A stretch of 34,500 nt of DNA from a virus. The notes below the pieces were generated by a model that did no database searches, was not told the DNA's origin, and saw only the letters and a program-made list of their open reading frames with translations. Location: IMG/VR virus record IMGVR_UViG_3300032240_002346, positions 1 to 34,500 of that record. One strand, written 5' to 3'. This document shows positions 10,864-33,246 of the stretch, one piece after another. Positions within the stretch are counted from its first letter, which is position 1, and each line of letters opens with the position of its first letter. Position numbers and translations under genes: made by a program.

Positions 10864-10867
10864 AACT

Positions 10868-12739
10868 ATGATATCATATACTACAAGAGATTTTCAGGCA
10901 ATTAGATTAGAATTAATAAACTATGTTAGAACTTATTATCCTGATTTAATTCAAAACGTAAATGATGCGTCGGTTTTTTCTGTTTTACTTGATTTAAACG
11001 CTGCGGTTACTGACAACTTAAATTATCATATTGATAGAAGTTTACAAGAAACTGTTCTACAATTTGCACAACAACCAAGTTCACTTTATAACATTGCAAG
11101 AACTTATGGGTTAAAAATACCTGGAATGAGACCTTCAATTTCATTAGTTGATTTTTCAGTGCAAGTCCCTCCTTTTGGAGACAAACCGGCAATACAGACA
11201 AATACAGGTACATTACAACCACCTGATTCATCTTACTTTGGTATTTTGGCTAAAGGTAGTCAGGTGATTGGTGCTGGACAAACTTTTGAAACTTTGTATG
11301 ATGTCGATTTTGGTAATGACTTTAATAGTGAAGGAATTGTTAATAGAACCGTAATTCCTAACTTTGATGCTAACAATATCTTAATTAATTATACAATTAC
11401 AAAGAGAGAAGTTGTTATTAATGGTATAACAAAAGTATTCAAACGAATTATCAATACTCCTGAAACAAGACCATTTTTTGAATTTTTCTTACCTGAGAAA
11501 AACGTATTAGGTGTAACTGGAGTAATTTTAAAAGACGGTACAAATTACAACAACGTTCCTTCACCTCAAGAGTTCATGGATACTACAAACTTAACTAATA
11601 AATGGTTTGAAGTTGAAGCGTTAGCTCAAGACAGTATTTTTATTGAAGACCCAACAAAACCACAAGATGAAACAGGTATTAAAGTTGGTCGTTATTATAA
11701 AACAAATAAAAAATTTATTACTGAATATACACCACAAGGATTTTTAAAACTAACTTTTGGTGGAGGAAATACATCCTCAGATGAACTGTTAAGACAATTT
11801 ACTACTAACGGTACTCCTTTGGATATTTCAAAATATCAGAATAACTATTCTTTAGGTTCAACACTTAAGGCAAATTCAACATTGTTTGTTCAATACCGTG
11901 TTGGAGGTGGATTAGTAAGTAATCTTGGGCCTGGTTCAATTACTCAACTTGGAACTGTAAACTTTAATGTATATGGTAGTGACCAAAATAAAGTTACTGC
12001 AGTAATTAATTCTTTATCTTGTAATAATATATTACCGTCAATTGGAGGTGCAAATTATCCAAGTACTGAAGAGATTAGAAATTTAATAACATTTAATTTT
12101 GCGGCACAAAACAGAGCTGTAACTATTAATGACTATGAGGCGATTATTAGAAAAATGCCTTCAAGATTTGGTGCTCCCGCAAAAGTTGCGATTACTGAAG
12201 TTGATAATAAAATAAATGTTCAGATTTTATCCTATGATTCAAACGGGGCATTAACTGAAACTATTTCTAATACATTAAAAAGTAATATTGCAACTTATTT
12301 ATCAAATTACAGAATGATGAATGATTATATTCAAGTTCTTCCGGCACAAGTTATTGATTTGGCCTTTGATATTTTTATTGTTCTTAATAGTTCGCAAAAT
12401 CAGGGTGTGGTAATTTCAAATATTATATCAAAGATTAACACCTATATGAGTCCAAGTAATCGAGGTATGGGTCAAAATCTTTATATATCACAGTTAAGAG
12501 CTTTGATACAAAGTGAGGAAGGTGTTATTACTGTTGCTTCAATAAATGTGTATAACAGAGTTGGTGGACTATATTCTTCATCACAGGCTTCTCAATCATA
12601 TTCTAATACAACTACAAAAGAAATTAAAGTAATTGAAGATACAGTTTATGCTGAACCAAATCAAATTTTTAATATTAGATTTCCTGATAAAGACATTAAA
12701 GTGTCGATTAAAAATCTAACAACGGTTAATTTCAGTTAA
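10868..12739 (+). CDS. gp6: Baseplate wedge protein, T4 gp6-like (baseplate J family)
   Basis: The 623-residue protein should form the dimeric wedge ring around the tail hub. The N-terminus ISYTTRDFQAIRLELINYVR, then YPDLIQNVNDASVFSVLLDL and an early TDNLNYHIDRSLQE, is typical of gp6/baseplate J proteins. A middle segment with YPSTEEIRNLITFNFAAQNR and TINDYEAIIRKMP (about 400-430) matches the conserved J-domain, and the C-terminal part shows the long helix-strand pattern that contacts neighbouring wedges. T4 gp6 is 660 residues. Adjacency to the gp25-like gene supports the call strongly. Confidence 0.9.
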   Translation: MISYTTRDFQAIRLELINYVRTYYPDLIQNVNDASVFSVLLDLNAAVTDNLNYHIDRSLQETVLQFAQQPSSLYNIARTYGLKIPGMRPSISLVDFSVQVPPFGDKPAIQTNTGTLQPPDSSYFGILAKGSQVIGAGQTFETLYDVDFGNDFNSEGIVNRTVIPNFDANNILINYTITKREVVINGITKVFKRIINTPETRPFFEFFLPEKNVLGVTGVILKDGTNYNNVPSPQEFMDTTNLTNKWFEVEALAQDSIFIEDPTKPQDETGIKVGRYYKTNKKFITEYTPQGFLKLTFGGGNTSSDELLRQFTTNGTPLDISKYQNNYSLGSTLKANSTLFVQYRVGGGLVSNLGPGSITQLGTVNFNVYGSDQNKVTAVINSLSCNNILPSIGGANYPSTEEIRNLITFNFAAQNRAVTINDYEAIIRKMPSRFGAPAKVAITEVDNKINVQILSYDSNGALTETISNTLKSNIATYLSNYRMMNDYIQVLPAQVIDLAFDIFIVLNSSQNQGVVISNIISKINTYMSPSNRGMGQNLYISQLRALIQSEEGVITVASINVYNRVGGLYSSSQASQSYSNTTTKEIKVIEDTVYAEPNQIFNIRFPDKDIKVSIKNLTTVNFS

Positions 12740-12790: not shown

Positions 12791-15700
12791 ATGTCTTCAT
12801 CTTACAGAATTAGAACAGAGTTAGGGATTGATAAGGTTGTTCAGGTTAAACTTGAACAGAACTTTGATACGCTTGAGTTACTATCATTATCAATTAACCC
12901 AAACGACGTATACACAAGAGCTTGTGCGGATTATGGTGTTATAGTTGGTAGAGTTTTCTGTAACAACGGATTTGGTCTACCTAACGCTAAAATATCTATT
13001 TTTATTGCTTTAGACGATGCTGACATCAATGATACTGTAATTAGTACATTATACCCATACAAAACAATTAATGACGTTAATGAAGATGGTTACAAATACA
13101 ATTTATTACCTTACACACCCTCTTACACTGGACACGTTCCTGTTGGGACATTCCCTGATAGAAACGATGCTTTAACTAATAAGTCAGTAATTCAAGTTTA
13201 CGACAAGTATTTTAAGTTTGTTGTTACTACAAATGGTTCGGGTGACTTTATGATTTTAGGTGTGCCGCCAGGACAACACACTTTATTCATGCAAGTTGAC
13301 TTGTCTGATATTGGTGAGTTTTCATTTACACCGGCGGATTTAATTAGAATTGGCCGAGCAACAGAATCACAAGTTAACGGAGCTCAATTTAAGTTTTCCG
13401 AAAATTATAGTGAATTACCACAAATTGTAACAATATCAAAAACAGTACAAGTCGCACCATTTTACGGTGAACAAGAAACTTGTGATTATTACATTGCAAG
13501 GACTGACTTTGACTTAACCGCTGAAGCTCAAGTTACTATTCGACCAACGGCAGTTTTTATGGGTTCGTTACTATCAACAGTTGATGAAACTAAGTTAGGA
13601 TATAATAATATCTATAACAGATGTAAGATACCTAAAACAATGGGTGACTTGTGTGATTTAACATCAGGTCCGGGACAAATACTTGCGATAAGACAAAGTT
13701 ATAAAACGGATAGTAATGGATTACCAATTTTAGAAAAAGTTGAGTTAGAAAATGGGGGTAAAGTAATTGATGAAAATGGAGCTTGGTTATTAGAAGTTCC
13801 AATGAATCTTGATTATGTATATACCGATGAGGAAGGTAATCAACAAATTACTCAAAATCCTGATGTTGGTATTCCAACAAAAGGTAAATATAGATTTAAA
13901 GTAAAATGGGAACAAGGCCCTGAATTATCTGAAACTACTAAAAGAGCATATTTTTTAGTTCCAAATGTTAAAGAATATGGTTGGACGGATTCAAACGACC
14001 CTTATTTAGATTATCAATTTAATGAATTACTTGGCACTCCCGTGTCTATTTATATCCCATCAAATTCTCCAAATGAGAATGGTGAGTATGTTTATTTATC
14101 TGATACTGGTTTAAATCCTAATGAAACTAATCGAGTATACAGATTAACAGGTACATTAAATGTTGAAAATTTACAAATATTTTATTCTGATGGTACACAG
14201 TATACATCACAAAATATATATCCTCAAGATTTTACATCATTATATTTTGTTTATGATAGGATAGATAATGGTTCAGATGCGATTATTAACTTTTTAAAAA
14301 TTGATGAAGATAGATTTTTACTTGAACAGTCATATGCTTTTAGTTTAGATTGGACAGATTATGCTAATGTATCATCGGCGATTAATTGTGAAGATACGTT
14401 TATGGAGCTTCAGTATAATAAAGTTTATACTGTTAGTCAGTTGATGGATAGATATGTGAGTGAAAAAAGAGCATGGAATGTAACAGGTATTAAAAATATT
14501 TTAGATGATAAATGTACGGGTGAGTATAACAAATTCCCAACTAACGATGCGTTTTTTAGAGTTAATTTTAATTATATTGTATATAATATATTCTTTGAAA
14601 TTTTTACACTTTTAAGTATAATTTTACTTATTGTCGTCCACGTTTTAGGATTTTTATGGGTTCTATTATTACCACTTATTATAGGGATAATAACTTTTAT
14701 ACAATTAATGATTATTGGTCTTTGTAATTTCAGAAATTGGGTAAGAGGTATTTTTAATAGACCTGATTTACCTTGTCCTGAACTTTTGGATTTAACACAA
14801 TTAGCAAATTCAAACCCTTTTAAAAATATTGGATTACCTCTTTTATTATATACTGAAGATGGTTGTGAAAGATGTAAGTGTCGATTAGACGATGCGAGTG
14901 GTGAAAGTTTAGGACAAGCCCAACTTACAACGGTTACACAAAGTTCCATTTTAATTAACAGTACTGATTTTGAACTTTATAGAAATGTTGCGGATGACCA
15001 ACAATATTTGGCAGGATTGTATGCTGGAAATCTTGCAAATAGCATTAATGGATTTCCTCAAAACAGATGTCCGATTGTTAATGTGGGGAATATTACAGTA
15101 ACAAGTATTGATGATGATGATTATACTTTTCAAAACTGGCATTTTTCATCTCAAATACCTTATTCAGAATATCTAAACACTTGGTGGTCTAAAGGTAGAT
15201 ATTTTGAACCGTCAAGTGATGAAATAGCTCATAGACCAAGATATTTTTACGGAAGTACCAGAATGAGAGTGACTATTGAACCTGATTTAAATAATCCTGA
15301 TACTATATATCATATGGATAATTTTCAGATTTTAGTTTTAGACCAACAAACTCAAATACCTGTCGCTGGTAGTATAATATCTTTTCAGGATAAAAATTTA
15401 TCTAATGATTTAAATTATTATGATGCTGAAAATAATAATCCATTTACTAGTGGTAGTACTAATAATTTAAATAACGTAACATACAAATGGACTAATCCTA
15501 ATAATGCTCAACCTATGTATACTACTTATAATATGAGTGGATTTACAGAATTTAAAAAAACAAGCGGTTTTCCGGCGGACATTGAATATTTCCAAATTAT
15601 CACAGGATTTACTATTGGTGAATATAGAAATTTAATCACAAATGAAACATTTGGTCCGGTTGATTATTTTGATACAAGTTTAGTACAAACTGTAAACTCA

Positions 15701-18457
15701 ACATTAAATCAATTATGGAATTATAAATTGCAACAATATGAATATTCTGAAGGGCAGTATGGTAATAACGGTACTGATTTAAACTGTTATGATGGTAGGT
15801 TTAGAGAAAGTAATTATAGTTTTGATACTATTAAGGAAGTAATTCCAAATATTAATAATTATGTTGTGTTAATATTGATGCGTGGTGTTGACGTTCATTC
15901 ACCAAGAGTTAAACAAAGAATTGATATTACGCAAGTTCTTAAATCTCGATATTCGTCAATATTGAATGTGAATTCTAATGGTTCTTTACCTAACATACCT
16001 TATACAAATAATACAGTATATGTTGAAGGTTATTATAAAATGAACGTACCGTTACAACCGAATAATTATACAAATAAAGCTTGTGTACGTCACAATCAAA
16101 TTCAAAATAATAATAGTAGTGACCAATTTGGTGGTAATATATTTTTTAATAGTTACGCTTTTTCATATTTACCACAACCATCACAAGGAAATGTTGTATA
16201 TATTGGACGTTATAAACAATTTAATACAACATTACCGTATTATTATTCTTCACTTGATATTTTAACTTTTGGACCAAATCAAAATAATGTTCCTCCAGGA
16301 TATGTAAATTCAGGATATACTCCACAATATTCATTTGATACATCTCAGGGTGTTTTAAGAAAAAGTTCTTTAAATTTAATGGGGGTTACTTTAAATAATA
16401 ATTTTAGTTGTGGTGGAGGAGGTAATCAACCTGGTTTGGGTAATGGAGCTGGAGCCTCAGCAGGATTTTGCCCAAAAAATCAAGTAACGACATTAAATGG
16501 TTACCAACCATCAGAAACTGCTGGACAAGGGTCCGCTCAATTTGATGGATATAGAACTAAACAATACTTGGAGGGAGGTGCTTTTTATCAATGGTATTTT
16601 AGTCATGAGCCGGCAAATGAAAGTTGTGAAATATCTGGAGGTTGGAAAATGTTTAGTTATGGTAATGCTCTTGGAAGAATGAGATTTTTCTCACCAACAT
16701 ATAGAACAACAGGTTCATATCAAAATGGTGGATATAATGGTCAAACATATGACCAAATTGTAATGTCAGATAATTCAAAAATTGTTATGAGAACTGATAG
16801 ATTACCATCATCAACAAGTGAATCATTATATGGTTCAAACAGTTATATGGTACATCAAAATCCTGTTTTTGCATTTTATACTTTAACAGATACTGGAGAC
16901 CCACAGGAGTTAACAAACGTAAACCAACAAAACTTTTCAATAAACGATAGTACAAATCAATTTATTCCATATGCCGAAGTTTCTGATTCATTGGCAACAT
17001 GTGAAAAGTCAGTTATGTTAAATTGTTATGAATTAGTTAATGGTGTACCAACAATCAAACCTAATTGTGACCAAATTATGAATCCTCAAGGACCTGAAAA
17101 ATATTTTAATTATGGTACAGGATGTTATAATTTAGTATCAAGATTTTTTATAACATTCCCACAAGATGTAAAATCAATTATTGAATGGTCACAAAGAACT
17201 AAAATAAATAATGCGGTATGTTTTAATGTATTTTCACATTCATTTTCAAATCAATGGATAAATGGTACTTTATACGCTTATCCATTCAATAATAAAAGAG
17301 TATTTACAGGAGCCAATAATAGACCTTACAGTATCTTCTGTAAAGATACAATATATTTCCATGAAACTAGTAATAATTTTTATTATAGAAGTTCTCCTTG
17401 GTCAGTAACCGATGGTTTTATTGGTAAAAATAATGAATCTTCTATTACTAATACGTCTTATGGTAATTATAAATTTTTACAGTCACCGACAACAATTTTA
17501 GATTTAGGCCCTAAAGCTTACTTCATCCAAGAATTAGTTAATAATGATGATTATGACGGATATATTGTTTCTAAAATTAAATCTACAAGTTATAATAATG
17601 TTTCTGAAATTCTTAATTTATTTATTTTAAGTCGTCTGATTAACCCAAACTTTTTAAGATTTTTAATACCTGCAACTCCGGGTGTAAATGAAGGGGCAAG
17701 TGACCCAACACTTAGAGGATTTTTCAAAAATAGACGATGGGAAAATGATAATACTGCGACATTACCGTCTTTAGTTGATGCGGATTATGCTCAAATGATA
17801 TCAATCAATTCAGAATTTGGTATTATACCATTTAGTGTTTCTAATTATGCTCAAACTGTTGGTTCAGTTTACCAGCCAGTTATTTTAGGTGATGAAAATA
17901 ATTTTCCGTTCTTTGGATTATTATTGACTGGTATTACCCAAGACAGAGATTATATATCTCCAAGACGAACTATATGGAATCCGCAGGCAACTATTGATAC
18001 TCCACAACAATATAATTTTACTGAAATTCCTGTTAAGTCACAAGAAGTACCATTTTATTTATGGAAACTTATAAAAATTAATAATGAAAATACAGGACAA
18101 CCTATGGATTATGGGACTATTTTTGGTTCTCAAAATAATAACTGGGTAACAAATTATCCGGACTCAACGGGTCAGTTTAATAATTCATTCTTCCAATACA
18201 AGTATCAAAAATTAGATAGATTCAATAACGCTAGTAGATATTTCCAAGTGGATGGAAACTTAGCGGCTAATTATAGAGGGACTTTAATAAACTTTGATTC
18301 AAATAATGTACCAACAGATGCAATACCGACTCAAAACTTTAATCCTCAATTTTTAGTAGGAGCTCCAAACCATTTTTATTTTGGATTAAAAAGAGGTGGA
18401 AGTGCTTTAGACAGATTTTTAATAAAATACGTAAATACAGAAGAAGTAATTGAATGA
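12791..18457 (+). CDS. Giant baseplate-region structural protein with internal membrane-type hairpin
   Basis: This 1888-residue protein is the largest product here and lies after gp25- and gp6-like genes, where T4 has gp7. No full-length family is recognised. Residues about 40-160 resemble a carboxypeptidase-regulatory/transthyretin-like beta-sandwich (DYGVIVGRVFCNNG, LPNAKISIF, then NGSGDFMILGVPPGQHTLF). Residues 596-645 are almost wholly hydrophobic, in two segments around Pro628, and look like two transmembrane helices; the basic FRNWVRGIFNR follows. A CERCKCR cluster (692-698) could bind metal or form disulfides. The rest is Asn/Tyr/Thr-rich beta-type sequence, with a Gly-rich loop from Cys1207 (CGGGG). 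The frame is unbroken and stops at TGA overlapping the next gene. A baseplate wedge or tail-tip role is inferred from position; the membrane segment is unusual for one. Confidence 0.8.
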   Translation: MSSSYRIRTELGIDKVVQVKLEQNFDTLELLSLSINPNDVYTRACADYGVIVGRVFCNNGFGLPNAKISIFIALDDADINDTVISTLYPYKTINDVNEDGYKYNLLPYTPSYTGHVPVGTFPDRNDALTNKSVIQVYDKYFKFVVTTNGSGDFMILGVPPGQHTLFMQVDLSDIGEFSFTPADLIRIGRATESQVNGAQFKFSENYSELPQIVTISKTVQVAPFYGEQETCDYYIARTDFDLTAEAQVTIRPTAVFMGSLLSTVDETKLGYNNIYNRCKIPKTMGDLCDLTSGPGQILAIRQSYKTDSNGLPILEKVELENGGKVIDENGAWLLEVPMNLDYVYTDEEGNQQITQNPDVGIPTKGKYRFKVKWEQGPELSETTKRAYFLVPNVKEYGWTDSNDPYLDYQFNELLGTPVSIYIPSNSPNENGEYVYLSDTGLNPNETNRVYRLTGTLNVENLQIFYSDGTQYTSQNIYPQDFTSLYFVYDRIDNGSDAIINFLKIDEDRFLLEQSYAFSLDWTDYANVSSAINCEDTFMELQYNKVYTVSQLMDRYVSEKRAWNVTGIKNILDDKCTGEYNKFPTNDAFFRVNFNYIVYNIFFEIFTLLSIILLIVVHVLGFLWVLLLPLIIGIITFIQLMIIGLCNFRNWVRGIFNRPDLPCPELLDLTQLANSNPFKNIGLPLLLYTEDGCERCKCRLDDASGESLGQAQLTTVTQSSILINSTDFELYRNVADDQQYLAGLYAGNLANSINGFPQNRCPIVNVGNITVTSIDDDDYTFQNWHFSSQIPYSEYLNTWWSKGRYFEPSSDEIAHRPRYFYGSTRMRVTIEPDLNNPDTIYHMDNFQILVLDQQTQIPVAGSIISFQDKNLSNDLNYYDAENNNPFTSGSTNNLNNVTYKWTNPNNAQPMYTTYNMSGFTEFKKTSGFPADIEYFQIITGFTIGEYRNLITNETFGPVDYFDTSLVQTVNSTLNQLWNYKLQQYEYSEGQYGNNGTDLNCYDGRFRESNYSFDTIKEVIPNINNYVVLILMRGVDVHSPRVKQRIDITQVLKSRYSSILNVNSNGSLPNIPYTNNTVYVEGYYKMNVPLQPNNYTNKACVRHNQIQNNNSSDQFGGNIFFNSYAFSYLPQPSQGNVVYIGRYKQFNTTLPYYYSSLDILTFGPNQNNVPPGYVNSGYTPQYSFDTSQGVLRKSSLNLMGVTLNNNFSCGGGGNQPGLGNGAGASAGFCPKNQVTTLNGYQPSETAGQGSAQFDGYRTKQYLEGGAFYQWYFSHEPANESCEISGGWKMFSYGNALGRMRFFSPTYRTTGSYQNGGYNGQTYDQIVMSDNSKIVMRTDRLPSSTSESLYGSNSYMVHQNPVFAFYTLTDTGDPQELTNVNQQNFSINDSTNQFIPYAEVSDSLATCEKSVMLNCYELVNGVPTIKPNCDQIMNPQGPEKYFNYGTGCYNLVSRFFITFPQDVKSIIEWSQRTKINNAVCFNVFSHSFSNQWINGTLYAYPFNNKRVFTGANNRPYSIFCKDTIYFHETSNNFYYRSSPWSVTDGFIGKNNESSITNTSYGNYKFLQSPTTILDLGPKAYFIQELVNNDDYDGYIVSKIKSTSYNNVSEILNLFILSRLINPNFLRFLIPATPGVNEGASDPTLRGFFKNRRWENDNTATLPSLVDADYAQMISINSEFGIIPFSVSNYAQTVGSVYQPVILGDENNFPFFGLLLTGITQDRDYISPRRTIWNPQATIDTPQQYNFTEIPVKSQEVPFYLWKLIKINNENTGQPMDYGTIFGSQNNNWVTNYPDSTGQFNNSFFQYKYQKLDRFNNASRYFQVDGNLAANYRGTLINFDSNNVPTDAIPTQNFNPQFLVGAPNHFYFGLKRGGSALDRFLIKYVNTEEVIE

Positions 18458-22118: not shown

Positions 22119-23024
22119 ATGGCAACAGGTAATTATGGAACAGTAAGATTGGCGGATGTGAGTCCAGCTGACGTGGAAATAATAATGAATTATACACCAT
22201 CAAGAGATTTCACTAATAATTTCATCTTGAAAAAATTAGACGCTCTTGAGTTGTTACAACCTTATTTTAGTAACCCGGCTATTGGTGGACAAACAAACGA
22301 AATTTTAGGTGGTATGTATAATCTAAAATTACCATCTACAGAATTTACTAATCTTGGGATTTATAATCTACTAATTAGACCAGTTCAAATTAGAACTCAA
22401 ATCCTTGATTGTGGTGTGTTACAATCATTACCAAATATTAAAGGGATTATTATTGATTTAACAAATGTACCTCAAGAATTTTTGAATAGGTTTGTACCAC
22501 AAGGATTAGTGGGTTATCGAATAGAATATTTAAACAATGATGGTACAAAAAATACTAACTTTTTTAGAATAATCACATCTTCATTTTATTGTGAGGCGGT
22601 AGTTGCTAATACTAATAATACATCAGATAAAGCTCAGAGATGGATTTATAGTGATGGTGAAACTAATTTATTATTTTGTACAGTTTCACCAAGCTCATCA
22701 CCATCAAACAAACCAAATGCTACACCTTATATTGGTGCTGCGGGACAAAGTATTATTTTAACAAATACTTTTTTTGACCCAATCATGATTGAGGTTGAAA
22801 TTGTTGAAAATGATATCTCAACATTGGCAATTGCTCTTTATGGTAATCAAACTAAATCTATTGAGGATGGTATATACACCATTTATGATACTAATAACAA
22901 CATTTACAAGCAATACAACTTGTATGAAATCAGAAGTCAATTTAATGAGTTGTTATATGAGGTTAGACAGAGCAGAGGAAGTAATATTGATACCACTAAA
23001 AACTTTGATAATATCACAGCTTAA
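22119..23024 (+). CDS. Tail/baseplate structural protein, 301 residues
   Basis: Unrecognised protein beginning MATGNYGTVRLADVSPADVE and containing the segment NFILKKLDALELLQPYF (about 35-51). It is mixed alpha/beta with a Ser/Pro-rich linker (SPSSSPSNKPNATPY) about two thirds along and a C-terminal helix YEIRSQFNELLYEVRQSRG. The last base of its TAA stop is the first base of the next ATG (TAATG), so the two proteins are probably translated in coupled fashion and made in linked amounts, which suits adjacent parts of one baseplate substructure. Nothing indicates an enzyme. Confidence 0.75.
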   Translation: MATGNYGTVRLADVSPADVEIIMNYTPSRDFTNNFILKKLDALELLQPYFSNPAIGGQTNEILGGMYNLKLPSTEFTNLGIYNLLIRPVQIRTQILDCGVLQSLPNIKGIIIDLTNVPQEFLNRFVPQGLVGYRIEYLNNDGTKNTNFFRIITSSFYCEAVVANTNNTSDKAQRWIYSDGETNLLFCTVSPSSSPSNKPNATPYIGAAGQSIILTNTFFDPIMIEVEIVENDISTLAIALYGNQTKSIEDGIYTIYDTNNNIYKQYNLYEIRSQFNELLYEVRQSRGSNIDTTKNFDNITA

Positions 23025-25987
23025 TGGCGACTTATAAATGTCCACCACAGAATAGAAATTTTTCAGATAATCTGGTTGGTTTACAACTAACCGATGGTGG
23101 AGGACTTACGCTTGGTACGTTTGAATTTTCAACAAGTGTAACAGAAAAGGTTAATAGAAATTTTGAATCAGGTACATTTTCATCATTATTTAGTAATAAC
23201 GATTTAAATTTAACTCCTGAATTAGCAGCATCGGTTTATAATAATAATTTCAGATTATATCCAAACTTTGATGAAACAGATGTAACCAATTTTGTATCTT
23301 ATGGTTCATTAAGTAAAAGATTGGAAGTTGCAATTAATAATGTTTTAAATTATTTCCCAGGTGCTTTAGAAATAAGAAGTTACACATCAGGGTCAACAAC
23401 CGCTAATACTGCAATTAACATTAGTTATAATAGTAATTCAGATGAGACTGTTTTAACTATTCCTTGGCAAACGATAAGTAATCCTTTTAATATTGATTAT
23501 AGAAATAATGCCACAGTTTATATTAGTAGTTTAGGATTTCCCGTTTCAAAGTATAGAAATCTAACAAATAAATTTAGAAGTTATTCATTATTCCTTAGTG
23601 GTCAAAGTTATGAGTTAAATTATATTAATAGTACTCCTGATTTTTCAACTAATTTTACAATATATGTTAAAGGTAATCCATTTAGTGGATTAACAACATT
23701 TTCTCAAAATTTTGTTGTTAGACCAAATGACACAATAGTAAACGAAGTATTTAACCTTGAATTAGGTGAAGTTGAAGAGGTATTATTAAATAGATATTCT
23801 AATCCAATATATACGTATCAATATCAAACTCCATCCGAATCAGATGATGGATATATTTCAAATGTTATACGTTCAATAACTTGGCCATTAAGTGGTATAT
23901 GGAATATAGATATAACTTCATTTGGTTATGAAAATTACATATCTGAATTACAAATATTAGGTGCTAGTTATGATGAGAATAAAACAAATTTAGTATCTAG
24001 ATTTTATACAACAAATGCATTAAAGGAATTTGATACTTTAGATGAAAAGGTTGATAAGACTTTAAAAATTTATGGTAGAAGTTTTGATGAGACGAAAAAA
24101 TATATTGATGGAATTCAGTATGTTAATTCTGTTAATTACAATATTGGAAATGATATACCTTCAGGTTTAGTTACTAATTTAGCACAAACACTTGGTTGGT
24201 CAATCAGAATGTCCCCGATTGCAAATGCTGACTTTTTAGAGTCAGTTTATGGGACAACTGACAATGCGTTTCCTGCTTACTCTACAAGTCAAACAAAACA
24301 AGATTTAAATAACCAATATTTTAGAAATTTAATTCTTAATTCTTCTTATTTGTATAGGTCAAAAGGAACAAGGAAAGCAATAGAATTTTTATTAAATTTT
24401 ATTGGTGCGCCTGACGCTCTTGTTGAGTTTAATGAGAATGTTTATTTGGCAGATACTAACATTAATATTGAAAGGTTTAATTTATTATACTCACAAATTT
24501 CAGGTGGAACTTATTCACCTCAGTTCACTGTTTTGAACAGTAGTAACTCCTATAATTTCCAAGGGGTTACATACACAGCTTACACACAATCAGGGGTTAC
24601 AATCCCAACAAATACAACGTTAGCTGATTATCCTGTTGATAGTGAAGGTTATCCTGTAAATCCTGTGTTTACACAAGGTACAACAAGTAAACCAAGTTTT
24701 TATTTCCAAAAAGGTAGTGGTTGGATTGAGTCTACAGTACAACATAGAACACCTGAACAGGTAAATTATACTACAAGTGTTTTCACAGGTCAAAATGCTA
24801 ATATCCAAACTAGTTTAGAACCATTTACATATGGACAAAAATTCTTGGATAGATTTAGAAATTTCCCATTCATGGATATGGGATTTAATCTTAAAAAAGT
24901 ACAAGATAATAAAAAAAGTTGGACTAACAACGATATTGGATTGAGAAAAAATATTGATAATTTATTTAACGCTTATTACCCAATATCAACAGATAGGTTA
25001 TTACTTAATGTTAAAAATGTTGAGATATTTTTAAATCCGGCTCAAGCATTGGCATACGATGTTTGGTATGTTTCAAGTACACAGAATTATCCAATACCAT
25101 TTACAGGATTGTCTTCACCTTATCCGCAAACTGGTGGTACCGATTGGACATTTATTAGTCCCCAACCCCAAAACAAAACTTTTTATGAATTCTATAAAAC
25201 TTTTTGGACTAATATGATTAATGTTAGAAATAGACAATTTTCATCTGATGGGAAAACAAGTGGATATCCAACATTACAATCATTGTTTTGGAAATATCTA
25301 ACAATGTACCAAGATACTGGATTAAGTAATGATAATTTTAGTTATCAAAATATGATTGAGTATATTAATGGATTAGGTGATTTTTGGATTAAATTAATTG
25401 AACAGTTTGTACCGGCAACAACAATTTGGAATACGGGAACTAAATTTGAAAATTCAATTTTTCACAGACAAAAATTTATATATAGAAGACAAAGAGGTTG
25501 TCAATTAGTTTTACAAGAAATTGTTGGCCCTGTAACAACAGGAACAATAAAAACAAACGCAAGTAATTCATTCATAGATAATATTAATACACCATCTATT
25601 CAAGATATTGGTAATGGTTTAAGTCAAGTATCACAAAATTTGGCAACACAACAAGGGTTTATTGGTAATTTTACAACGGTTAGTGCAAAATATGGATTTA
25701 GTTTCCAATTAATTCATACGGACACTAATGAAACTTTTACATTTGAATATAACAATGGGCCAACGTATTACTATCCTGTAATATTACCAACTGAAACACA
25801 ATGGGTTAATACAATAAACCAAGGATTAGTTTATTTTGCCAACAGTGGAATTAATAATGAGGCAGGTGTTCAAATAATCTATGATAGTAACACAGGTAAT
25901 TTACAGGTTGTTTCTGTTATAGGGGGATTTCAAGATGTTGTTATTACAGACATAAGTATTTTATATGATATACAAATTCAAGGATAA
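23024..25987 (+). CDS. Baseplate wedge protein with P2 gpI/T4 gp7-like core
   Basis: This 987-residue protein has a middle region (about 340-470) resembling the tail protein I family of P2-like phages and gp7-type wedge proteins: a helical stretch TLDEKVDKTLKIYGRSFDET, a NLAQTLGWSI segment, then YFRNLILNSSYLYRSKGTRK with the family's hallmark Lys-Gly-Thr at 447-449 and AIEFLLNFIGAPDALVEF. In such proteins this core clamps gp6 dimers in the wedge, and a gpI follows J in P2. The N-terminal 330 residues are beta-rich; the C-terminal 120 residues form another module (SFQLIHTDTNETFTF ... NTGNLQVVSV) that might serve as a fibre-docking part. If correct, this, not the 1888-residue protein, is the gp7 equivalent. 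It overlaps the previous gene by one base. Confidence 0.72.
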   Translation: MATYKCPPQNRNFSDNLVGLQLTDGGGLTLGTFEFSTSVTEKVNRNFESGTFSSLFSNNDLNLTPELAASVYNNNFRLYPNFDETDVTNFVSYGSLSKRLEVAINNVLNYFPGALEIRSYTSGSTTANTAINISYNSNSDETVLTIPWQTISNPFNIDYRNNATVYISSLGFPVSKYRNLTNKFRSYSLFLSGQSYELNYINSTPDFSTNFTIYVKGNPFSGLTTFSQNFVVRPNDTIVNEVFNLELGEVEEVLLNRYSNPIYTYQYQTPSESDDGYISNVIRSITWPLSGIWNIDITSFGYENYISELQILGASYDENKTNLVSRFYTTNALKEFDTLDEKVDKTLKIYGRSFDETKKYIDGIQYVNSVNYNIGNDIPSGLVTNLAQTLGWSIRMSPIANADFLESVYGTTDNAFPAYSTSQTKQDLNNQYFRNLILNSSYLYRSKGTRKAIEFLLNFIGAPDALVEFNENVYLADTNINIERFNLLYSQISGGTYSPQFTVLNSSNSYNFQGVTYTAYTQSGVTIPTNTTLADYPVDSEGYPVNPVFTQGTTSKPSFYFQKGSGWIESTVQHRTPEQVNYTTSVFTGQNANIQTSLEPFTYGQKFLDRFRNFPFMDMGFNLKKVQDNKKSWTNNDIGLRKNIDNLFNAYYPISTDRLLLNVKNVEIFLNPAQALAYDVWYVSSTQNYPIPFTGLSSPYPQTGGTDWTFISPQPQNKTFYEFYKTFWTNMINVRNRQFSSDGKTSGYPTLQSLFWKYLTMYQDTGLSNDNFSYQNMIEYINGLGDFWIKLIEQFVPATTIWNTGTKFENSIFHRQKFIYRRQRGCQLVLQEIVGPVTTGTIKTNASNSFIDNINTPSIQDIGNGLSQVSQNLATQQGFIGNFTTVSAKYGFSFQLIHTDTNETFTFEYNNGPTYYYPVILPTETQWVNTINQGLVYFANSGINNEAGVQIIYDSNTGNLQVVSVIGGFQDVVITDISILYDIQIQG

Positions 25988-25989
25988 AA

Positions 25990-28170
25990 ATGGCTAATAC
26001 TACATATACAATAAGTTTAACAGGTGATTGTACAAACAGTTCATTAGGCTCTGCGAAAATTAATTTAATTGGGTCAAGTCCTTACACGATAAGTTGGGTA
26101 AATAATGTATTACCACCATCAACTTTTTCAACGAGTTCTTATTCGGTTACAGGATTAAGTGCTGGTACTTATGGTTTTAATATTACTGCATCAACAATCC
26201 CAATAAATGAAGTTATTGGCCCAATATATTTTAATATAGTTTCTGCTAGCACCGCCTATATTAATACTTATTCACTTGCGGGTTGTGGATTAAATAATTC
26301 ATATCTTGATATAATTGTTACGGGGGTTACTAATGGAGTAGTTAATACTGGAGGAGGAAGTTTTCAAGGTGCAACGGTAAATCTATTTAAAGATTATGTT
26401 TTTTATAGTTCGGCAACTTCTATTTCTGAAATTACATCGTTTGTAAATTTAGGTAAAGGTATGTATTATGCTGAAATTACTGGACAAGGTAATTGTCCTT
26501 GTAAGACTGAATCTGTTGTAATACATGAAAATCCTAATACATTAGATTTTGATTTTTATGTTATTGATAATCCATCATGTTCACAATCAAGTGGTAAAAT
26601 TTATATTACAGGATTAACTGGTACACCACCATATTATTTTCAGTGGTCGCCAGCAGTTGGTGGTACTGGAGACACTTTTGTCACAGGATTAACACAAGGT
26701 TCGTATAATGTTAGTGTGACAGATGCTAATAATTGCCGATTGAACAAAGTTACATATGTTAGTGGTGCAACTCCAATATCTTTAATGTCATATACTTTAA
26801 CACCTCCGTCATGTTTTAATTCTGATGGTAGTTTAACATTTAGTATTACAGGAGGAACGGCTCCTTATTTTTACTTATTAAGTAATGGGGATTCAGTTAC
26901 AACTTATAGTACTTCGGTTACCTTTAATAATATTGGTGCGGGTAGTTATACATTAACGGCAACAGATGTTTCATTATGTAGTTTTTCAACAACCGCAGAT
27001 GTGTTTGTACCTAAAAGTTTTTCATTAGTTTCTGAAAATGTGACTAACTCACAATGTTCGTACAATAGTGGTTCTATTCAAGTTAGATTATTAGGAGGAA
27101 CACCTCCTTTTATATATTCTTTAACTAATAATAGCGGAAATACAGTAACTAATACGTCAACGTTACAAACAAACACATTTAATCAATTAGAGTCAGGTAC
27201 TTATACTCTAACAATAAATGATAGTAGTAGTGCTTGTACTTATACTAATAATATTACAATATTAAATGACACTTCATTTAATTTTACAATTACAGGGAAC
27301 AGTACTTATTGTGGATTAAATGATGGTTCAATAAATATAAATGTAACACCAAATTATACAGGTTCAACATTTTATACTTATTCACTATCAAACGGAGCGA
27401 GTTCATACCCGACAACATCTACCACATACACTTTTAATAATTTACCTGCTAACAATTATGATGTTACAGTAATAAATCTATCAGGTTGTTCACAAACAAA
27501 ATCAACAACTGTTGATTATCTATCACCTTATCAGTTTGCACTTTATGGAACAGATTGTATCACAGGGAGTGGAGGTACTATCAGTGTTTTATTAAACGAA
27601 AGTACTGGACCTTTTAATTTTATTTGGAGTGATAATGTAAATGGACAAATGGGTTCATATATTACAGGATTAACCGCAGGAACTTATGTTTTAACTGTGA
27701 GTGGTACGAGTAATTGTCAGACAACTAAATCGATTGATATTACTTGTAATCCATTACGACAGGTTAGCTCAAGTTATGTTTATACAATTGGCAATAAAAC
27801 TTATTTACCGTCAACAGTATTTAATTTTTTAAAAATGTTAAATGAAGGTTATGTTTCATTAACTAATGGACATCAGGATTGTAAATTAAAATATGCTAAG
27901 TTTAATTGTGATATTGAATTAAATGGAATTGTATATTCAGGAACTTTCTACACAACAACTTCATTATCTACGGCACCTCCTGATACTTCTTTTGTGACAG
28001 CAATTGAAACTTTAATTAATACTATTCCTAATATTAAAAGTTATAATGTTGATTTAACTACAAATACTATCAGTATTGAATCTAATGTTGTTGGTGGCGT
28101 TGAGGTTTATAAAGATGATGTATTAACAATATCTGTAAAAATAGATTATAGTATATCTTGTCGTACTTAA
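25990..28170 (+). CDS. Tail adhesin-like protein made of SprB-type repeats
   Basis: The 726-residue product has about seven tandem repeats of 75-90 residues at roughly 5-85, 90-182, 184-260, 262-341, 343-425, 428-509 and 511-586. The clearer units read: Cys, Gly-Ser-(Ile/Leu), GGT-(P/A)-P-(Y/F) then an aromatic strand, G-(S/T)-Y-x-(V/L)-(S/T)-(V/A)-(T/N)-D, and a second Cys. This is the pattern of SprB repeats, known from the gliding-motility adhesin of Flavobacterium and relatives. Residues about 590-726 form a different C-terminal domain (FNCDIELNGIVYSGTF, FVTAIETLINTIPN) that could be a virion-binding or trimerising end. No signal peptide is present, so it is a virion part rather than a secreted protein. 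Position between the wedge gene and the fibre genes points to host recognition. Confidence 0.82.
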   Translation: MANTTYTISLTGDCTNSSLGSAKINLIGSSPYTISWVNNVLPPSTFSTSSYSVTGLSAGTYGFNITASTIPINEVIGPIYFNIVSASTAYINTYSLAGCGLNNSYLDIIVTGVTNGVVNTGGGSFQGATVNLFKDYVFYSSATSISEITSFVNLGKGMYYAEITGQGNCPCKTESVVIHENPNTLDFDFYVIDNPSCSQSSGKIYITGLTGTPPYYFQWSPAVGGTGDTFVTGLTQGSYNVSVTDANNCRLNKVTYVSGATPISLMSYTLTPPSCFNSDGSLTFSITGGTAPYFYLLSNGDSVTTYSTSVTFNNIGAGSYTLTATDVSLCSFSTTADVFVPKSFSLVSENVTNSQCSYNSGSIQVRLLGGTPPFIYSLTNNSGNTVTNTSTLQTNTFNQLESGTYTLTINDSSSACTYTNNITILNDTSFNFTITGNSTYCGLNDGSININVTPNYTGSTFYTYSLSNGASSYPTTSTTYTFNNLPANNYDVTVINLSGCSQTKSTTVDYLSPYQFALYGTDCITGSGGTISVLLNESTGPFNFIWSDNVNGQMGSYITGLTAGTYVLTVSGTSNCQTTKSIDITCNPLRQVSSSYVYTIGNKTYLPSTVFNFLKMLNEGYVSLTNGHQDCKLKYAKFNCDIELNGIVYSGTFYTTTSLSTAPPDTSFVTAIETLINTIPNIKSYNVDLTTNTISIESNVVGGVEVYKDDVLTISVKIDYSISCRT
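26002..27747 (+). repeat. Seven diverged SprB-like protein repeats
   Basis: The segment codes for seven tandem units of about 75-90 codons. They are conserved as protein (paired Cys, GGTPPY-type turn, GTYTLTVTD-type strand) but little conserved as DNA, so the array is old rather than a recent amplification. Units 3 to 5 are the most regular; units 1 and 2 are the most diverged, and unit 6 lacks the GGTPP turn. Confidence 0.7.
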
Positions 28171-28197: not shown

Positions 28198-29199
28198 ATG
28201 AGTTTAGTAACAATTAATAGTTTGGGAGGAACACCTCCTTATGTTGTTTCAGTTTGTGATATATTTCAGTATTCTTGTCAAACTTTGACAACTATATATA
28301 ATTATATTCCACCATCTGTTAGTTTTAATTTACCAAGCCCATATTCTTCTGCGCCAAAAGTTTTAATTAAAATTATTGATTCAACAGGATGTGTATTCAC
28401 ACAGGAATACACATGTACAACACCGACACCAACACCAAGTATAACGCCGAGTATTACTCCGACTATTTCTTTAACACCGTCACATACGCCAACACCAAGT
28501 ATTACACCATCACATACTCCGACACCAAGTATTACTCCAAGTATTACACCAACTCAAACAGTTACACCGTCACATACACCAACACAAACAATTACTCCGA
28601 CGGTTACAAATACACCAACACCAAGTGTCACATCTGAAGTGCCTTACGCATACCTCTTTATCGAACCATATTCAGGTTCTTCAAGTATTGGTTCTTATAT
28701 GAATTCACTTGGGTCAAGTTTTTATGGGTTTACAAATACTACACAACCAAGTAGTTCAGCAAATACGTTTAATTCTGATATGAATAAATATGTTAATTTT
28801 TCAGGATGGACTAACGGACAGTTTCCAGTGATAATAAAACAAAATGTTGTTTTTTCTGCGAATGGATTGGATTCTTATGGCAACCCAAAAATTCTATGGA
28901 ATTTTTCAACAACAAAAGTCCCTGAAAATACTGTGGAATGTAAAGCATGGTATACATGGATAATACCTTCAATTTATACCAATAACAAATATCAAACAGA
29001 AATTGATTTAGGAATTGTTAATCCAAATGTCTTTACAAGTATTAAAATGGAACCAACAATTTACGCCAATACATTCACTTACACAGGTAGTACTATTGCT
29101 AGAACAACATATAGAGTTTACACCACATACCCATCAAATACGTTTGAATTGGATAATACTTATGACCTTTATTTTAGAGGAAGTAAGGTTGATATATAA
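28198..29199 (+). CDS. Fibre-region protein: SprB-like fragment, Thr/Pro stalk, C-terminal domain
   Basis: The 333-residue product has three parts. Residues 1-73 look like most of one SprB-type repeat ([14 protein letters not shown] ... [14 protein letters not shown]) related to those of the preceding protein. Residues 74-145 are a low-complexity stalk of Thr, Pro and Ser with Ile/Val/His (units such as TPSITPS and TPSHTP), likely an extended rigid spacer. Residues about 148-333 form a globular beta-type domain ([16 protein letters not shown] ... [12 protein letters not shown]) that I do not recognise and that may be the binding head. It looks like a modular receptor-binding accessory protein. 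The start ATG is in the context AAATGAGTTT, the same as the next gene. Confidence 0.75.
28417..28632 (+). repeat. Imperfect tandem repeat coding for a Thr/Pro/Ser stalk
   Basis: About 216 bases consist of short imperfect repeats built from ACACCAAGTATTACTCC-like and CCGTCACATACACCA-like units, all in frame. Copies differ mostly at third codon positions (CCA/CCG/CCT, ACA/ACG/ACT), so the protein is kept while DNA identity is reduced. Slippage or recombination here could change stalk length. Confidence 0.85.
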
Positions 29200-29208
29200 T
29201 TATAATAA

Positions 29209-32200
29209 ATGAGTTTCCCATATAAAAATCCAATATCGTCCATCCAACTAAATGGGACACAGAGTGTACCAAGAAATAATACGTATGGTACTACTTTTAG
29301 TGTTAACAATACTGGTGGTTACATGGAAGTTTATAGTTTATCTGACCTCTATTATACTATACCATCAGGAACAACAGGGAGTATTGAGTATTCGGGTAAC
29401 ACTATCCCTATTGAGTTTACAAAAGGAACGGGAGCGGTTTGGTCTCCTGATGTTTTAACATTGGCCTCAGATAACATTTCCTCAGGTAGAAGACGACTTG
29501 GTATGTTGGTATATGTTTATGAACAAGACCAAGTTTATCAATATTATATTAACAATTACGAAACATTATTTAATGCTGCAACTGCTAGTACGGGGTGTGT
29601 TCGTATATCAGATTTCGGAACTACAATAAATAATAAGACCGCTGCGGGACAATCGTTTATTAACGCTTGGACGGGTAATACAATTGAAGATGTAAGTGGA
29701 GCAACTCATGCTACTGCGGTATGGAGAAAGTTTTCGTCAGGTGCAAGTTCAGGTGGAACATCAGGGACTAGTTTATATATTGTTGGTGCAGGTGTTAACT
29801 CAACCGTGAGATGTGGGGTAAATAATACCGCTAAGGGTGATTATGGGGCTTCTTTGGGAGGTTCGGGTAATACTGCGTTAGGTAAATATTCATTTGTTGG
29901 TGGAGGACGTGGTAACACCGCAAGTAACGCTTACTCAACCGTAGGTGGAGGATATTCAAACACCGCAATAGGCGATGATTCAACCGTAAGTGGAGGACAA
30001 AGTAACAACTCAAGTGGATGTAGGTCAACCGTAAGTGGTGGATATCTTAACACCTCAAGTAATTATTACTCAACCGTAAGTGGAGGACGAAATAACACCT
30101 CAAGTGGTAATGGTTCAACCGTAAGCGGAGGGTATTGTAATACCTCAAGTGGTACCACGTCAACGATAAGTGGGGGATATTGTAATATTAATGGAGGTGA
30201 CTCAGCATTTATTGGGGCAGGTAGATGTAATACTATGGTTGGAATTACTGGAGGAATTATTGGAGGAGGTTCAACTAACACTGTTAGTAACAATTATTCA
30301 GTTATTGGAGGAGGTGCAGGTAACACTGTAAGTGGTTATATTTCATTTGTTGGTGGTGGGTCAAGTAATACCGTAAGTGGTGATTATTCAAACGTAGGCG
30401 GGGGAAGATTTAATACCGCGAGTGGATACAAGTCAACAATAAGTGGTGGATATTGTAACAGTGCAAGTGGTAATTATTCATTTATTGGTGGTGGGAGTAC
30501 AAATACATCATCGGGTTATTATTCATTTATAGGTGGGGGATATCAAAATACTATTTCTAGTTATCCATCAACTGGGCCATCATTTTCTTCAATCCTTAAT
30601 GGTAGTTTAAATACTATTTCAGGTACTAGTAAAATTGGGTCTTATTCGGTAATAATCGGAGGTTCTAATAATTTTGTATCCGATTCATTTATTGGTGTGT
30701 TTGGGTGTAATATTGTTGCATCTTGTCCCAATACATTTTATACAAATAATTTTTGTTCTTGTGGGTCAATCTACTCAAGTACATTATCTTCAGGACAAGC
30801 GGTTTGCACAGGTACTAACGGGTTATTAACAAATTATACACCTGTAAGTTCCGTTATTATTCAGGGTACGTGTACAACATCATCAGTTAGATGTGGGGTA
30901 TCTAATAATGCTACTGCTGATTTTTCAGCATCGTTGGCTGGTACAGGTAATACCGCATCAGGATTAGCGTCGGTAGTTGTTGGTGGTGCATTAAATAATA
31001 CTTATAGTACCTATTCTTTTGTGGGTGGTGGTGTAGGTAATAAATCGTGTGGAAGTTCCGCTAGTGTTGTTGGAGGTGGTTTAAATACTTCTTGTTGCTC
31101 TTATTCATTTATTGGAGGGGGACTTCAAAATATTACTAGCGGTTCAACATCGTCAGTTGTTGGTGGATGTAAAAATACTGCGGGTGGTAACTGTTCATTT
31201 ATTGGAGGTGGTACTTTAAATATTATTACATCAGGTGGTTCTTCTAGTTTTATTGGAACAGGTAGAGGTAATACTGTTAGTGGTAACTACAGTATGGTAC
31301 TTGGAGGTAGTGGTAATACAGTTACAGGTAGTTTCTCATCGGCAATTGGTTGTGGATTAAATGCTACGGATAACTGTACTTTATACACTAATAATATAAT
31401 AACAGGTACAATATCTGCGACAACATATAACAACTTACCTTCATTTAGTGGGGGAAGTATTACAGGTTTAACAATTAACGGTAATCTAACGGTTACGGGT
31501 AATACTTCATTACAAGCTTTAACGGCGACGACAATATCTGCAACAACTTATTCTAACCTACCAACAGATATTAGAACGACAGGGGGAACTTATTCTAACA
31601 ATACTTTTACATTTACTAACAATACAGGTGGAACTTATTCAGTATTATTCAATACAGTTACAGGGTTAACTATCAACGGTAATTTAACTGTAACAGGCAA
31701 TACTTCATTACAAGCTTTAACGGCGACGACAATATCTGCAACAACATATAATAACCTTCCATCATTTAGTGGAGGGACTATTACAGGATTAACCATCAAC
31801 GGTAATTTAACTGTAACGGGTAATACTTCATTACAAGCTTTAACTGCAACAACAATATCTGCAACAACCATATCATCACCATTTACAACAGGTTCGGTTA
31901 TATTTCAGGGTAGTGGTGGAACATTAACTCAAAGTAATTCCCAATTATTTTGGGATAATACGAATAATAGATTAGCTATCGGTAATAACGCACCTAATTA
32001 CCCGATTACAATAACAAGAAATACTACAAATAATTACATTGAACTTATAGGTAATACAAATAAGGGATTATTTGCAAATGGCAGTGGATTAATTGCATTT
32101 GATACAACAGGTAATTTTAATATTTACACAGGTGGGGTTAACTACAGAGCAATGTTTTCCTCAACAGGTAATCTTTTATTGAATACCCCTACTGACGCAG

Positions 32201-33246
32201 GTTACTTGTTGGATGTTAATGGAACAAGTCGTTTAAATGGATTATCTTCAATAAACGGTACAGGTATTACGAATACCGCATTAGCAATATATGCAAATGG
32301 TGTAGGTGCTGGTAATTATATTTTCCAAGGACTTGACTCTTCATCAGTTCAAAGGTCGTATTTAACAGCAACAGGTAATTTTAGACTAAATGCTGCAACG
32401 GACACAGGGACTTCAGGTACTGATGAAAAGATAAGGTCACTATATAACTTTTCACCGACAAGTGGAAATCGTGAACATTATGGGTTCTATATGACCCAAA
32501 CTATCAACCAAACAAGTGGGGCTAGCGGTATTACAAGGGCAATTTACATTGTCCCAACATTAACATCCGCATATGATTACAGAACGATTGAATGGACTAA
32601 TACGACAGGTTATGGTTTATACGGTTCAGGCTCAGCTCCTAACTACCTTCAAGGTAACACACTTATTGGCACAACTGCAAATACAGGAACTTATAAATTA
32701 GATGTTCGTGGAGCCACAAGATTATCTGCAACAACAGGAACAAGTTTAACTGTAATTAGTTCAGGTAATAGTACATCTGTACCTGTCTTTTCAGTTCAAG
32801 GTTCACAAGGTGAATTGTTCAGTGTTACAGATAGTTTAACAGGTTCGTTATTCTCTGTTAGTGATATTTCAGGTTTACCAATAATGGAAGTGTTTTCTGA
32901 TAGTACAACAGTAATTGGTGACTATCAAGCTCCATCTCTTTATACTACAAAACGTGTTTCATCAATTACCGCATCAACAGGAACAACAATATATTCATTT
33001 CCAACAAGTGCGTACACTTCTTCATATGTTGATTATAATGTATCAGGTAGTACAGGATTAAGAGCAGGTAATATTATGGCAATATGGAGTGGTACTTCAG
33101 TTAACTTTACTGAAACATCAACTAATGATATTGGTGTTACAACTCCATTAACATTCGGTTATGTGATGTCAGGTTCAAATGCGGTTTTACAAGCGTCAGC
33201 TTCAACATCTACTTGGATAGTAAAAACAATAGTTAGAGGATTATAA
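29209..33246 (+). CDS. Long tail fibre with YadA/Hep-Hag-type head repeats
   Basis: The 1345-residue protein is a probable trimeric tail fibre. Residues 1-190 form an N-terminal attachment domain. Residues 198-520 and 558-735 carry 14-residue beta-roll repeats of the trimeric-autotransporter head type (units like GNTASGNYSTVSGGY and SFIGGGSTNTSSG). Residues about 733-890 are shaft repeats containing LTINGNLTVTGNTSLQALTA three times. The rest (about 900-1345) is a Gly/Thr/Ser/Asn-rich distal part with motifs such as AGYLLDVNGTSRLN and TYKLDVRGATRLS, a style common in environmental phage fibres, ending TWIVKTIVRGL. No signal peptide, autotransporter anchor or chaperone-type peptidase motif (S74) is seen. 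Several Cys in turns of the head repeats are unusual for this fold. It probably reaches the host surface and determines host range. Confidence 0.85.
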   Translation: MSFPYKNPISSIQLNGTQSVPRNNTYGTTFSVNNTGGYMEVYSLSDLYYTIPSGTTGSIEYSGNTIPIEFTKGTGAVWSPDVLTLASDNISSGRRRLGMLVYVYEQDQVYQYYINNYETLFNAATASTGCVRISDFGTTINNKTAAGQSFINAWTGNTIEDVSGATHATAVWRKFSSGASSGGTSGTSLYIVGAGVNSTVRCGVNNTAKGDYGASLGGSGNTALGKYSFVGGGRGNTASNAYSTVGGGYSNTAIGDDSTVSGGQSNNSSGCRSTVSGGYLNTSSNYYSTVSGGRNNTSSGNGSTVSGGYCNTSSGTTSTISGGYCNINGGDSAFIGAGRCNTMVGITGGIIGGGSTNTVSNNYSVIGGGAGNTVSGYISFVGGGSSNTVSGDYSNVGGGRFNTASGYKSTISGGYCNSASGNYSFIGGGSTNTSSGYYSFIGGGYQNTISSYPSTGPSFSSILNGSLNTISGTSKIGSYSVIIGGSNNFVSDSFIGVFGCNIVASCPNTFYTNNFCSCGSIYSSTLSSGQAVCTGTNGLLTNYTPVSSVIIQGTCTTSSVRCGVSNNATADFSASLAGTGNTASGLASVVVGGALNNTYSTYSFVGGGVGNKSCGSSASVVGGGLNTSCCSYSFIGGGLQNITSGSTSSVVGGCKNTAGGNCSFIGGGTLNIITSGGSSSFIGTGRGNTVSGNYSMVLGGSGNTVTGSFSSAIGCGLNATDNCTLYTNNIITGTISATTYNNLPSFSGGSITGLTINGNLTVTGNTSLQALTATTISATTYSNLPTDIRTTGGTYSNNTFTFTNNTGGTYSVLFNTVTGLTINGNLTVTGNTSLQALTATTISATTYNNLPSFSGGTITGLTINGNLTVTGNTSLQALTATTISATTISSPFTTGSVIFQGSGGTLTQSNSQLFWDNTNNRLAIGNNAPNYPITITRNTTNNYIELIGNTNKGLFANGSGLIAFDTTGNFNIYTGGVNYRAMFSSTGNLLLNTPTDAGYLLDVNGTSRLNGLSSINGTGITNTALAIYANGVGAGNYIFQGLDSSSVQRSYLTATGNFRLNAATDTGTSGTDEKIRSLYNFSPTSGNREHYGFYMTQTINQTSGASGITRAIYIVPTLTSAYDYRTIEWTNTTGYGLYGSGSAPNYLQGNTLIGTTANTGTYKLDVRGATRLSATTGTSLTVISSGNSTSVPVFSVQGSQGELFSVTDSLTGSLFSVSDISGLPIMEVFSDSTTVIGDYQAPSLYTTKRVSSITASTGTTIYSFPTSAYTSSYVDYNVSGSTGLRAGNIMAIWSGTSVNFTETSTNDIGVTTPLTFGYVMSGSNAVLQASASTSTWIVKTIVRGL
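29800..31383 (+). repeat. Two blocks of Hep-Hag/YadA-like 42-base repeats
   Basis: Units of about 42 bases (14 codons) run from 29800 to about 30708 and again from 30880 to 31383. Both blocks open with related text (STVRCGVNNTAKGDYGASL and SSVRCGVSNNATADFSASL) and both close with a Cys-Asn/Thr-YTNN segment, so the second block appears to be a duplicated, shortened copy of the first. Adjacent units share DNA stretches such as TCAACCGTAAGTGGAGGA, particularly between 29935 and 30180, which indicates recent expansion there. Confidence 0.82.
31405..31880 (+). repeat. Shaft repeats with high DNA identity in the fibre gene
   Basis: Three copies of a roughly 100-base unit begin near 31462, 31660 and 31783 and share long nearly identical runs, for example AATACTTCATTACAAGCTTT at 31501, 31699 and 31822. 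Spacing is 198 then 123 bases, both multiples of three, so gain or loss of units keeps the frame. A 75-base segment coding for GGTYSNNTFTFTNNTGG interrupts the first interval. Confidence 0.88.

Follow-up and report, generated by a model that had tools for sequence, protein, structure and literature searches.

Do phages carry in their tails the repeat modules of SprB, the gliding adhesin of Bacteroidota, and if so, how were these modules acquired and what might they do there? The question was raised by an open reading frame (ORF) at 25990-28170 (plus strand, 726 aa) in a 34.5-kb stretch of viral DNA, referred to here as the window. The original prediction, borne out as to the ORF itself, was that it encodes a tail protein with seven SprB-type repeats. 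The window (GC 32%) is a fragment of a T4-like myophage, and its genes, all on the plus strand, encode an ssDNA-binding protein, UvsX, an exonuclease, DnaB, RNR, gp25, and gp6, followed by tail proteins and fibers.

The 726-aa protein scored 70.6 bits (8.4e-20) with Pfam family PF13573 (SprB repeat), whose curated cut-off is 28 bits, and 4 repeats were counted. With a profile restricted to 135 bacterial SprB repeats, seven domains were reported, six significant and one weak, with a total of 210 bits (E = 1e-64); none of 200 shuffled copies of the protein matched this profile. In the other direction, a profile of the phage modules matched bacterial arrays, down to E 1e-227. Phage and bacterial modules were alike in length (approximately 75 aa, at a spacing of approximately 75-85 aa), in consensus, and in both cysteines, which flank a GGTxPY...GxYxVxVxDxxGC core. 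Cysteines occupied both columns in 96-97% of phage repeats (93-97% of phage and bacterial repeats together) and 93% of bacterial repeats. Judged by these sequence comparisons, the phage modules are homologous to Bacteroidota SprB repeats along their entire length, and both the predicted repeat type and the predicted number were upheld.

All seven modules were located on the plus strand. Module 1 (25990-26265, residues 1-92) contains the first cysteine only and matched the profile at residues 13-66 (i-E 2.7e-5), whereas modules 2-7 each contain the cysteine pair. Module 2 (26266-26535, residues 93-182, Cys99/Cys169) was the weak one (match 135-180, i-E 1.4), with a conserved position and an invariant cysteine pair. 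Clear matches were obtained for module 3 (26557-26775, residues 190-262, Cys197/Cys249; match 192-253, i-E 9.5e-14), module 4, the best Pfam repeat (26791-27015, residues 268-342, Cys275/Cys330; match 269-340, i-E 1.3e-17), module 5 (27025-27270, residues 346-427, Cys356/Cys416; match 349-425, i-E 7e-13), module 6 (27286-27516, residues 433-509, Cys441/Cys500; match 434-509, i-E 5e-10), and module 7 (27529-27747, residues 514-586, Cys523/Cys576; match 521-586, i-E 1.3e-10). The modules are followed by a phage-specific C-terminal alpha/beta domain (27757-28167, plus strand, residues 590-726), which was kept in all orthologs. It was absent from the sampled bacterial SprB-repeat ORF stretches and had no known homolog. 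Our guess is that this domain anchors the protein to the virion.

AlphaFold2 with a 26-sequence alignment predicted seven beta-sandwich beads and the alpha/beta C-terminal domain (pLDDT 77 overall, compared to 38.6 for the full-length protein from five close sequences, and 72-88 in the C-terminal domain from residue 611). The pTM of 0.32 means that the single modules are predicted and their relative arrangement is not. By Foldseek, the best solved relatives were segments of GhpA of Aureispira (PDB 9flp, 9fly, and others; E 3.7e-18), in which related modules are strung as a bead-on-string rope and to which there was also a weak profile match (5.6e-4). GhpA differs, however, in being a 5898-aa grappling-hook protein of a predatory bacterium, with 15-19% identity over the aligned segments. 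The best viral relative was UniProt A0A6J5LD72, a 714-aa protein of an uncultured Caudovirales phage that was 47% identical over its full length and is, on this sequence evidence, almost certainly an ortholog. Its name, 'SprB repeat', is an automatic label already present in UniProt. No description of SprB-repeat proteins in phages was found in a search of open-access full texts.

The gene lies in a tail block in the order gp25/gp6 baseplate, large proteins, a 987-aa protein, the SprB-repeat gene, and fibers. The block is anchored by gp25-like and gp6-like baseplate wedge genes (10411-12739, plus strand; PHROG 7e-19 and 4e-20). Directly upstream of the SprB-repeat gene is the conserved 987-aa tail protein (23024-25987, plus strand), which was 39-54% identical across the clade. 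It had no named match in Pfam, PHROGs, NCBIfam, or PDB profiles and resembled P2 gpI-type proteins by eye only; it is possibly a baseplate-to-fiber connector. Downstream are a 333-aa protein (28198-29199, plus strand), composed of a 74-aa small domain, a Thr/Pro-rich linker, and a variable distal domain, and a 1345-aa tail fiber (29209-33246, plus strand). The fiber has a conserved N-terminal 175 aa, YadA-like GG-N-T repeats (SxxGGGxxNTxSG), and a variable end; past the N-terminal 175 aa, its sequence is not conserved between phages but replaced. The same block was found in a 242-kb relative, G010 (the same record as L014), whose core-gene proteins are 94-97% identical to those of the window and in which the tail sheath gene is approximately 42 kb away from the block. 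Two other features of the window were noted. A 1888-aa tail protein (12791-18457) is only 70% identical in the relative with core genes at 94-97% and very different in length in other phages, making it a second fast-evolving large tail protein. A GIY-YIG homing endonuclease gene between the DnaB and RNR genes (5362-6090) is missing from the collinear 242-kb relative and is a mobile insertion.

Fourteen close relatives (78-85% identity) all had 726-residue versions of the protein, one of them frameshifted, and a search by short conserved peptides returned the same 14 only. A motif scan of viral contigs yielded PF13573 in 50 of 50 records, a sample picked by that motif; in all 20 of these that were examined, 7-9 tail genes were in identical order and a full-length ortholog was present at 33-40% identity. 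For an unbiased test, the bait was the 301-aa protein encoded two genes upstream, which recovered at least 587 contigs. The 80 best of these included 65 that extended beyond the 987-aa gene, and the SprB-repeat ortholog came next in 64. The remaining contig ended 154 residues into the ORF, and those residues matched, at 77%, the beginning of the protein in a relative that has the SprB repeats. Complete orthologs from this test formed 40 clusters at 90% identity. The bacterial profile counted 7 modules in 36 orthologs, 6 in 19, and 4 in one, the counts of 6 reflecting a weak module under threshold. These data show that the 726-aa protein belongs to the fixed make-up of a large freshwater clade of T4-like jumbo myophages, most of them uncultured, and the conserved place of its gene (20/20 and 64/65 contigs) is that of a tail gene in a baseplate-fiber operon. 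The predicted tail assignment is thus well supported by gene position, and the protein is presumably part of the virion.

Some orthologs depart from this pattern. In L015/L220 (606 + 82 aa) and L242 (174 + 491 aa), the ortholog is split into two frames in phages that are otherwise intact, through either sequencing error or real decay. In some other lineages, large extra domains are joined to either end of the protein by Thr/Pro-rich linkers. A 718-aa protein of Microcystis phage Mel-JY01, similar in length and position, was considered and found not to be homologous. More distantly related tail genes were seen in a single cell of Prochlorococcus and in a metagenome-assembled genome of a rumen Paludibacteraceae, and the proteins encoded after them had no SprB match.

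The original prediction named capture of an adhesin module from the host as one possibility and held the module to be spreading within the fiber cluster, citing a partial repeat in the neighboring gene at 28198-29199. Two observations could be read in this way: relatives encode a further SprB-repeat protein (676 aa), and the neighbor shows a short sequence resemblance. However, the bacterial SprB profile reported nothing in the neighbor, whose homologs scored only E 0.0015 to 1.4, and its N-terminal part is a separate, orthologous ORF of 102-125 aa in six relatives (L195, L199, L203, L208, L211, and L214). The number of modules was constant. Moreover, in comparisons among 16 diverse orthologs, the best match of a module in another phage was the module at the same position in 1600 of 1680 cases (95%). 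Because the modules are positional orthologs and their number and order have been kept, the array predates the clade and had diversified before it. Identity of phage modules to sampled bacterial repeats was 38-46%, compared to 40-55% to those of other phages, so no sampled bacterial repeat was closer than other phages. Recent capture followed by spread is already contradicted by these data, and we give it almost no credence. Rather, the modules would trace back to a single ancient acquisition from among the surface proteins of Bacteroidota, with later evolution inside the phage.

Divergence from the 242-kb relative was also compared between genes. The SprB-repeat protein had a dN of 0.149 and a dS of 0.72 (dN/dS approximately 0.21), whereas UvsX, DnaB, gp6, and the 301-aa protein had dN values of 0.014-0.017 and dS values of 0.29-0.41; dN was thus approximately tenfold that of core genes. 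The 987-aa protein was intermediate (dN 0.056). The ratio indicates purifying selection on the SprB-repeat protein overall, and its higher dS suggests some allele exchange. A dN and a dN/dS of this size are as expected of an exposed yet constrained surface protein. Variation among close relatives was highest in module 2 (57-58% identity to the G010 group) and lowest in module 7 (92-93%). Ig-like spacers are common in tails, and the protein could be purely structural, an Ig-like rod that supports the baseplate or determines how far the fibers reach, with no binding to the cell. Such a part would be expected to occur throughout the clade, with a constant count of modules and an unchanged gene position, as seen here. 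Yet the protein changes much faster than the baseplate and neighboring tail proteins, and the lineage-specific end domains likewise suggest outward contact. We therefore regard a purely structural part as unlikely, though deserving of consideration.

Another possibility is that the protein decorates the head or neck, as Hoc of T4 and pb10 of T5 do with Ig-like beads and a virion-binding domain. PHROG 2973, a Hoc-like decoration family, matched at 1.1e-5, a T5-type phage match labeled 'neck whiskers' adjoins portal and protease genes, and PDB profiles of neck whiskers gp24 (9occ, 2e-4) and a decoration protein (5lxk, 0.004) were also retrieved. These matches span just one or two modules, however, and the single modules are only weakly similar in sequence; the similarity to head decoration proteins arises because the Ig-like module is common to both. 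The phage protein, in contrast to Hoc and pb10, has seven SprB-type modules and an unrelated C-terminal domain that is missing from those proteins, and its gene was within the baseplate-fiber block in every contig. Neither a capsid-binding domain nor a head-gene location was found. A place on the head or neck is accordingly improbable.

We consider it probable, with some reserve, that the protein is a constitutive tail part whose seven-module rod serves as a baseplate-proximal, weak, multivalent adhesive arm in a jumbo clade that probably infects Bacteroidota. The seven Ig-like modules would form a beaded rod, each held by probably one disulfide once the particle is extracellular, after lysis. 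The phage-specific C-terminal domain would probably dock the rod on the baseplate or on the adjacent 987-aa connector. The rod could then act as both spacer and arm, keeping the particle on a host surface covered with glycans and adhesins, and this contact would precede irreversible binding by the fibers. In some relatives, the protein carries additional lineage-specific domains at either end, joined through the Thr/Pro-rich linkers.

The closest precedent for such an arm is found in crAss-like phages, whose tail-associated proteins carry BACON arrays (PMC6949934). These also are arrays of an Ig-like, Bacteroidota-type module, stable in number (eight in the prototypical crAssphage lineage; PMC6949934) and distinct from the bacterial copies. 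Adhesion to epithelia has been shown for Ig-like proteins of phages, many of which contain BACON domains (PMC13370021). The arrays differ in that ours consists of seven modules of the SprB family (PF13573) in the baseplate block of myoviruses, namely freshwater jumbo phages, and ends in a phage-specific domain; no BACON domain (PF13004) was matched in the 726-aa protein in the Pfam scan. Beside the crAssphage arrays, the clade is a second independent case of phages fixing an Ig-like module array typical of the surface proteins of their likely hosts. The 726-aa protein is a universally present marker and a candidate adhesion protein of a large freshwater jumbo clade. Together, the marker and the second case make it testable, on a defined protein, whether phages adhere via the host's own adhesin modules.

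Mimicry of the gliding adhesin itself, with an arm that joins the moving SprB, binds it, or competes with it, was the other possibility in the original prediction; on this reading, the moving adhesin would transport the particle over the cell. The repeat is held in common, gliding adhesins have been proposed as phage receptors in flavobacteria (PMC7345892; PMC13288928), and gliding swarms carry phage particles (PMC10434198), although for lambda phages this transport was via fluid flow. In Bacteroidota, however, we counted up to 58 PF13573 matches per genome, in ORFs of approximately 400 to 4800 aa; because the repeat occurs in so many different, unrelated surface proteins, an SprB repeat is not equivalent to a gliding adhesin. 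The T9SS sorting domain attaches SprB-type adhesins. No NCBIfam match to such a domain (type A or B) was found in the window protein or in one relative, whereas the positive control, an SprB-repeat protein from a bacterium, matched TIGR04131 at 2e-13. By eye only, the N-terminus (MANTTYTISLTGDC...) has neither the basic start nor the hydrophobic stretch of a secretion signal, and module 1 follows directly. The phage protein thus shares with SprB and other Bacteroidota SprB-repeat proteins (PF13573, TIGR04131) the approximately 75-aa module, the cysteine pair, and the tandem arrangement, but differs in its missing sorting domain, its lack of a long or near-identical array, and its phage gene context. 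Bacterial ORFs of approximately 700 aa with six repeats were considered as phage copies and rejected, as they carry a type B sorting domain and are surface proteins of bacteria. The phage repeats were only 38-46% identical to the bacterial ones sampled, and nothing tied the phage protein to gliding; we rate mimicry as highly improbable. A broader idea, that the whole freshwater jumbo clade needs the seven-module arm for attachment, with module-to-module contact with Bacteroidota SprB-repeat proteins, possibly the gliding adhesin, as primary receptor, is in our view a long shot. Of the original interpretation, homology to Bacteroidota SprB repeats and a Bacteroidota host were retained, and recent capture, spread, and gliding mimicry were not.

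As predicted, the repeats do serve as a pointer to the host, being homologous to those of Bacteroidota. PF13573 exceeded the cut-off in 25 of 118 Bacteroidota genomes sampled and in 0 of 59 Cyanobacteria, and the closest matches of the RNR large subunit came from phages of Cellulophaga and Tenacibaculum and from LR756502 (38-41%; next group, 30%); a Bacteroidota host is therefore likely for the clade. A gp6 relative was present in a Flavobacterium phage. The host evidence is mixed, however: gp6 and sheath relatives also include a Microcystis phage, RNR was found at similar identity in a few Cyanobacteria genomes, and a Prochlorococcus single-cell assembly has a distant relative of the tail block that lacks SprB. 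No CRISPR spacer link was found among 395 Bacteroidota genomes; spacer-like DNA matches there were attributed to chance or shared motifs, and the three stretches checked were without a CRISPR array. Bacteroidetes hosts have been predicted for all huge-phage genomes above 634 kb (PMC7162821), and LR756502, at 642 kb, also encodes an SprB array. Microcystis phage Mel-JY01 (L034) has gp25, gp6, and sheath in common with the clade and lacks the SprB protein. In L295 (QCKH01000004.1, 83.8 kb, from a Prochlorococcus single-cell assembly), a relative of the 301-aa tail protein (52% identity) is followed by a 2711-aa protein that replaces the 987-aa and SprB genes; L295 is either a cyanobacterial or a contaminating relative of the clade.

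Other SprB-repeat proteins were seen in related phages. The 676-aa protein (G010:C1:64602-66632, or L024:4602-6632; also in L155-L164) is different from the first, lies approximately 32 kb from it, adjoins glycine-rich tail-fiber genes, and has three modules by the bacterial profile. The 642-kb phage LR756502.1 encodes a 1670-aa protein (514378-519390, or L020:13474-18486) that differs in architecture and matches the SprB array approximately nine times. In L025 (G010:85949-90968), glycosyltransferase-like genes adjoin the fiber cluster, and one of them shares 47% identity with a gene from the Xanthomonas jumbo phage XacN1.
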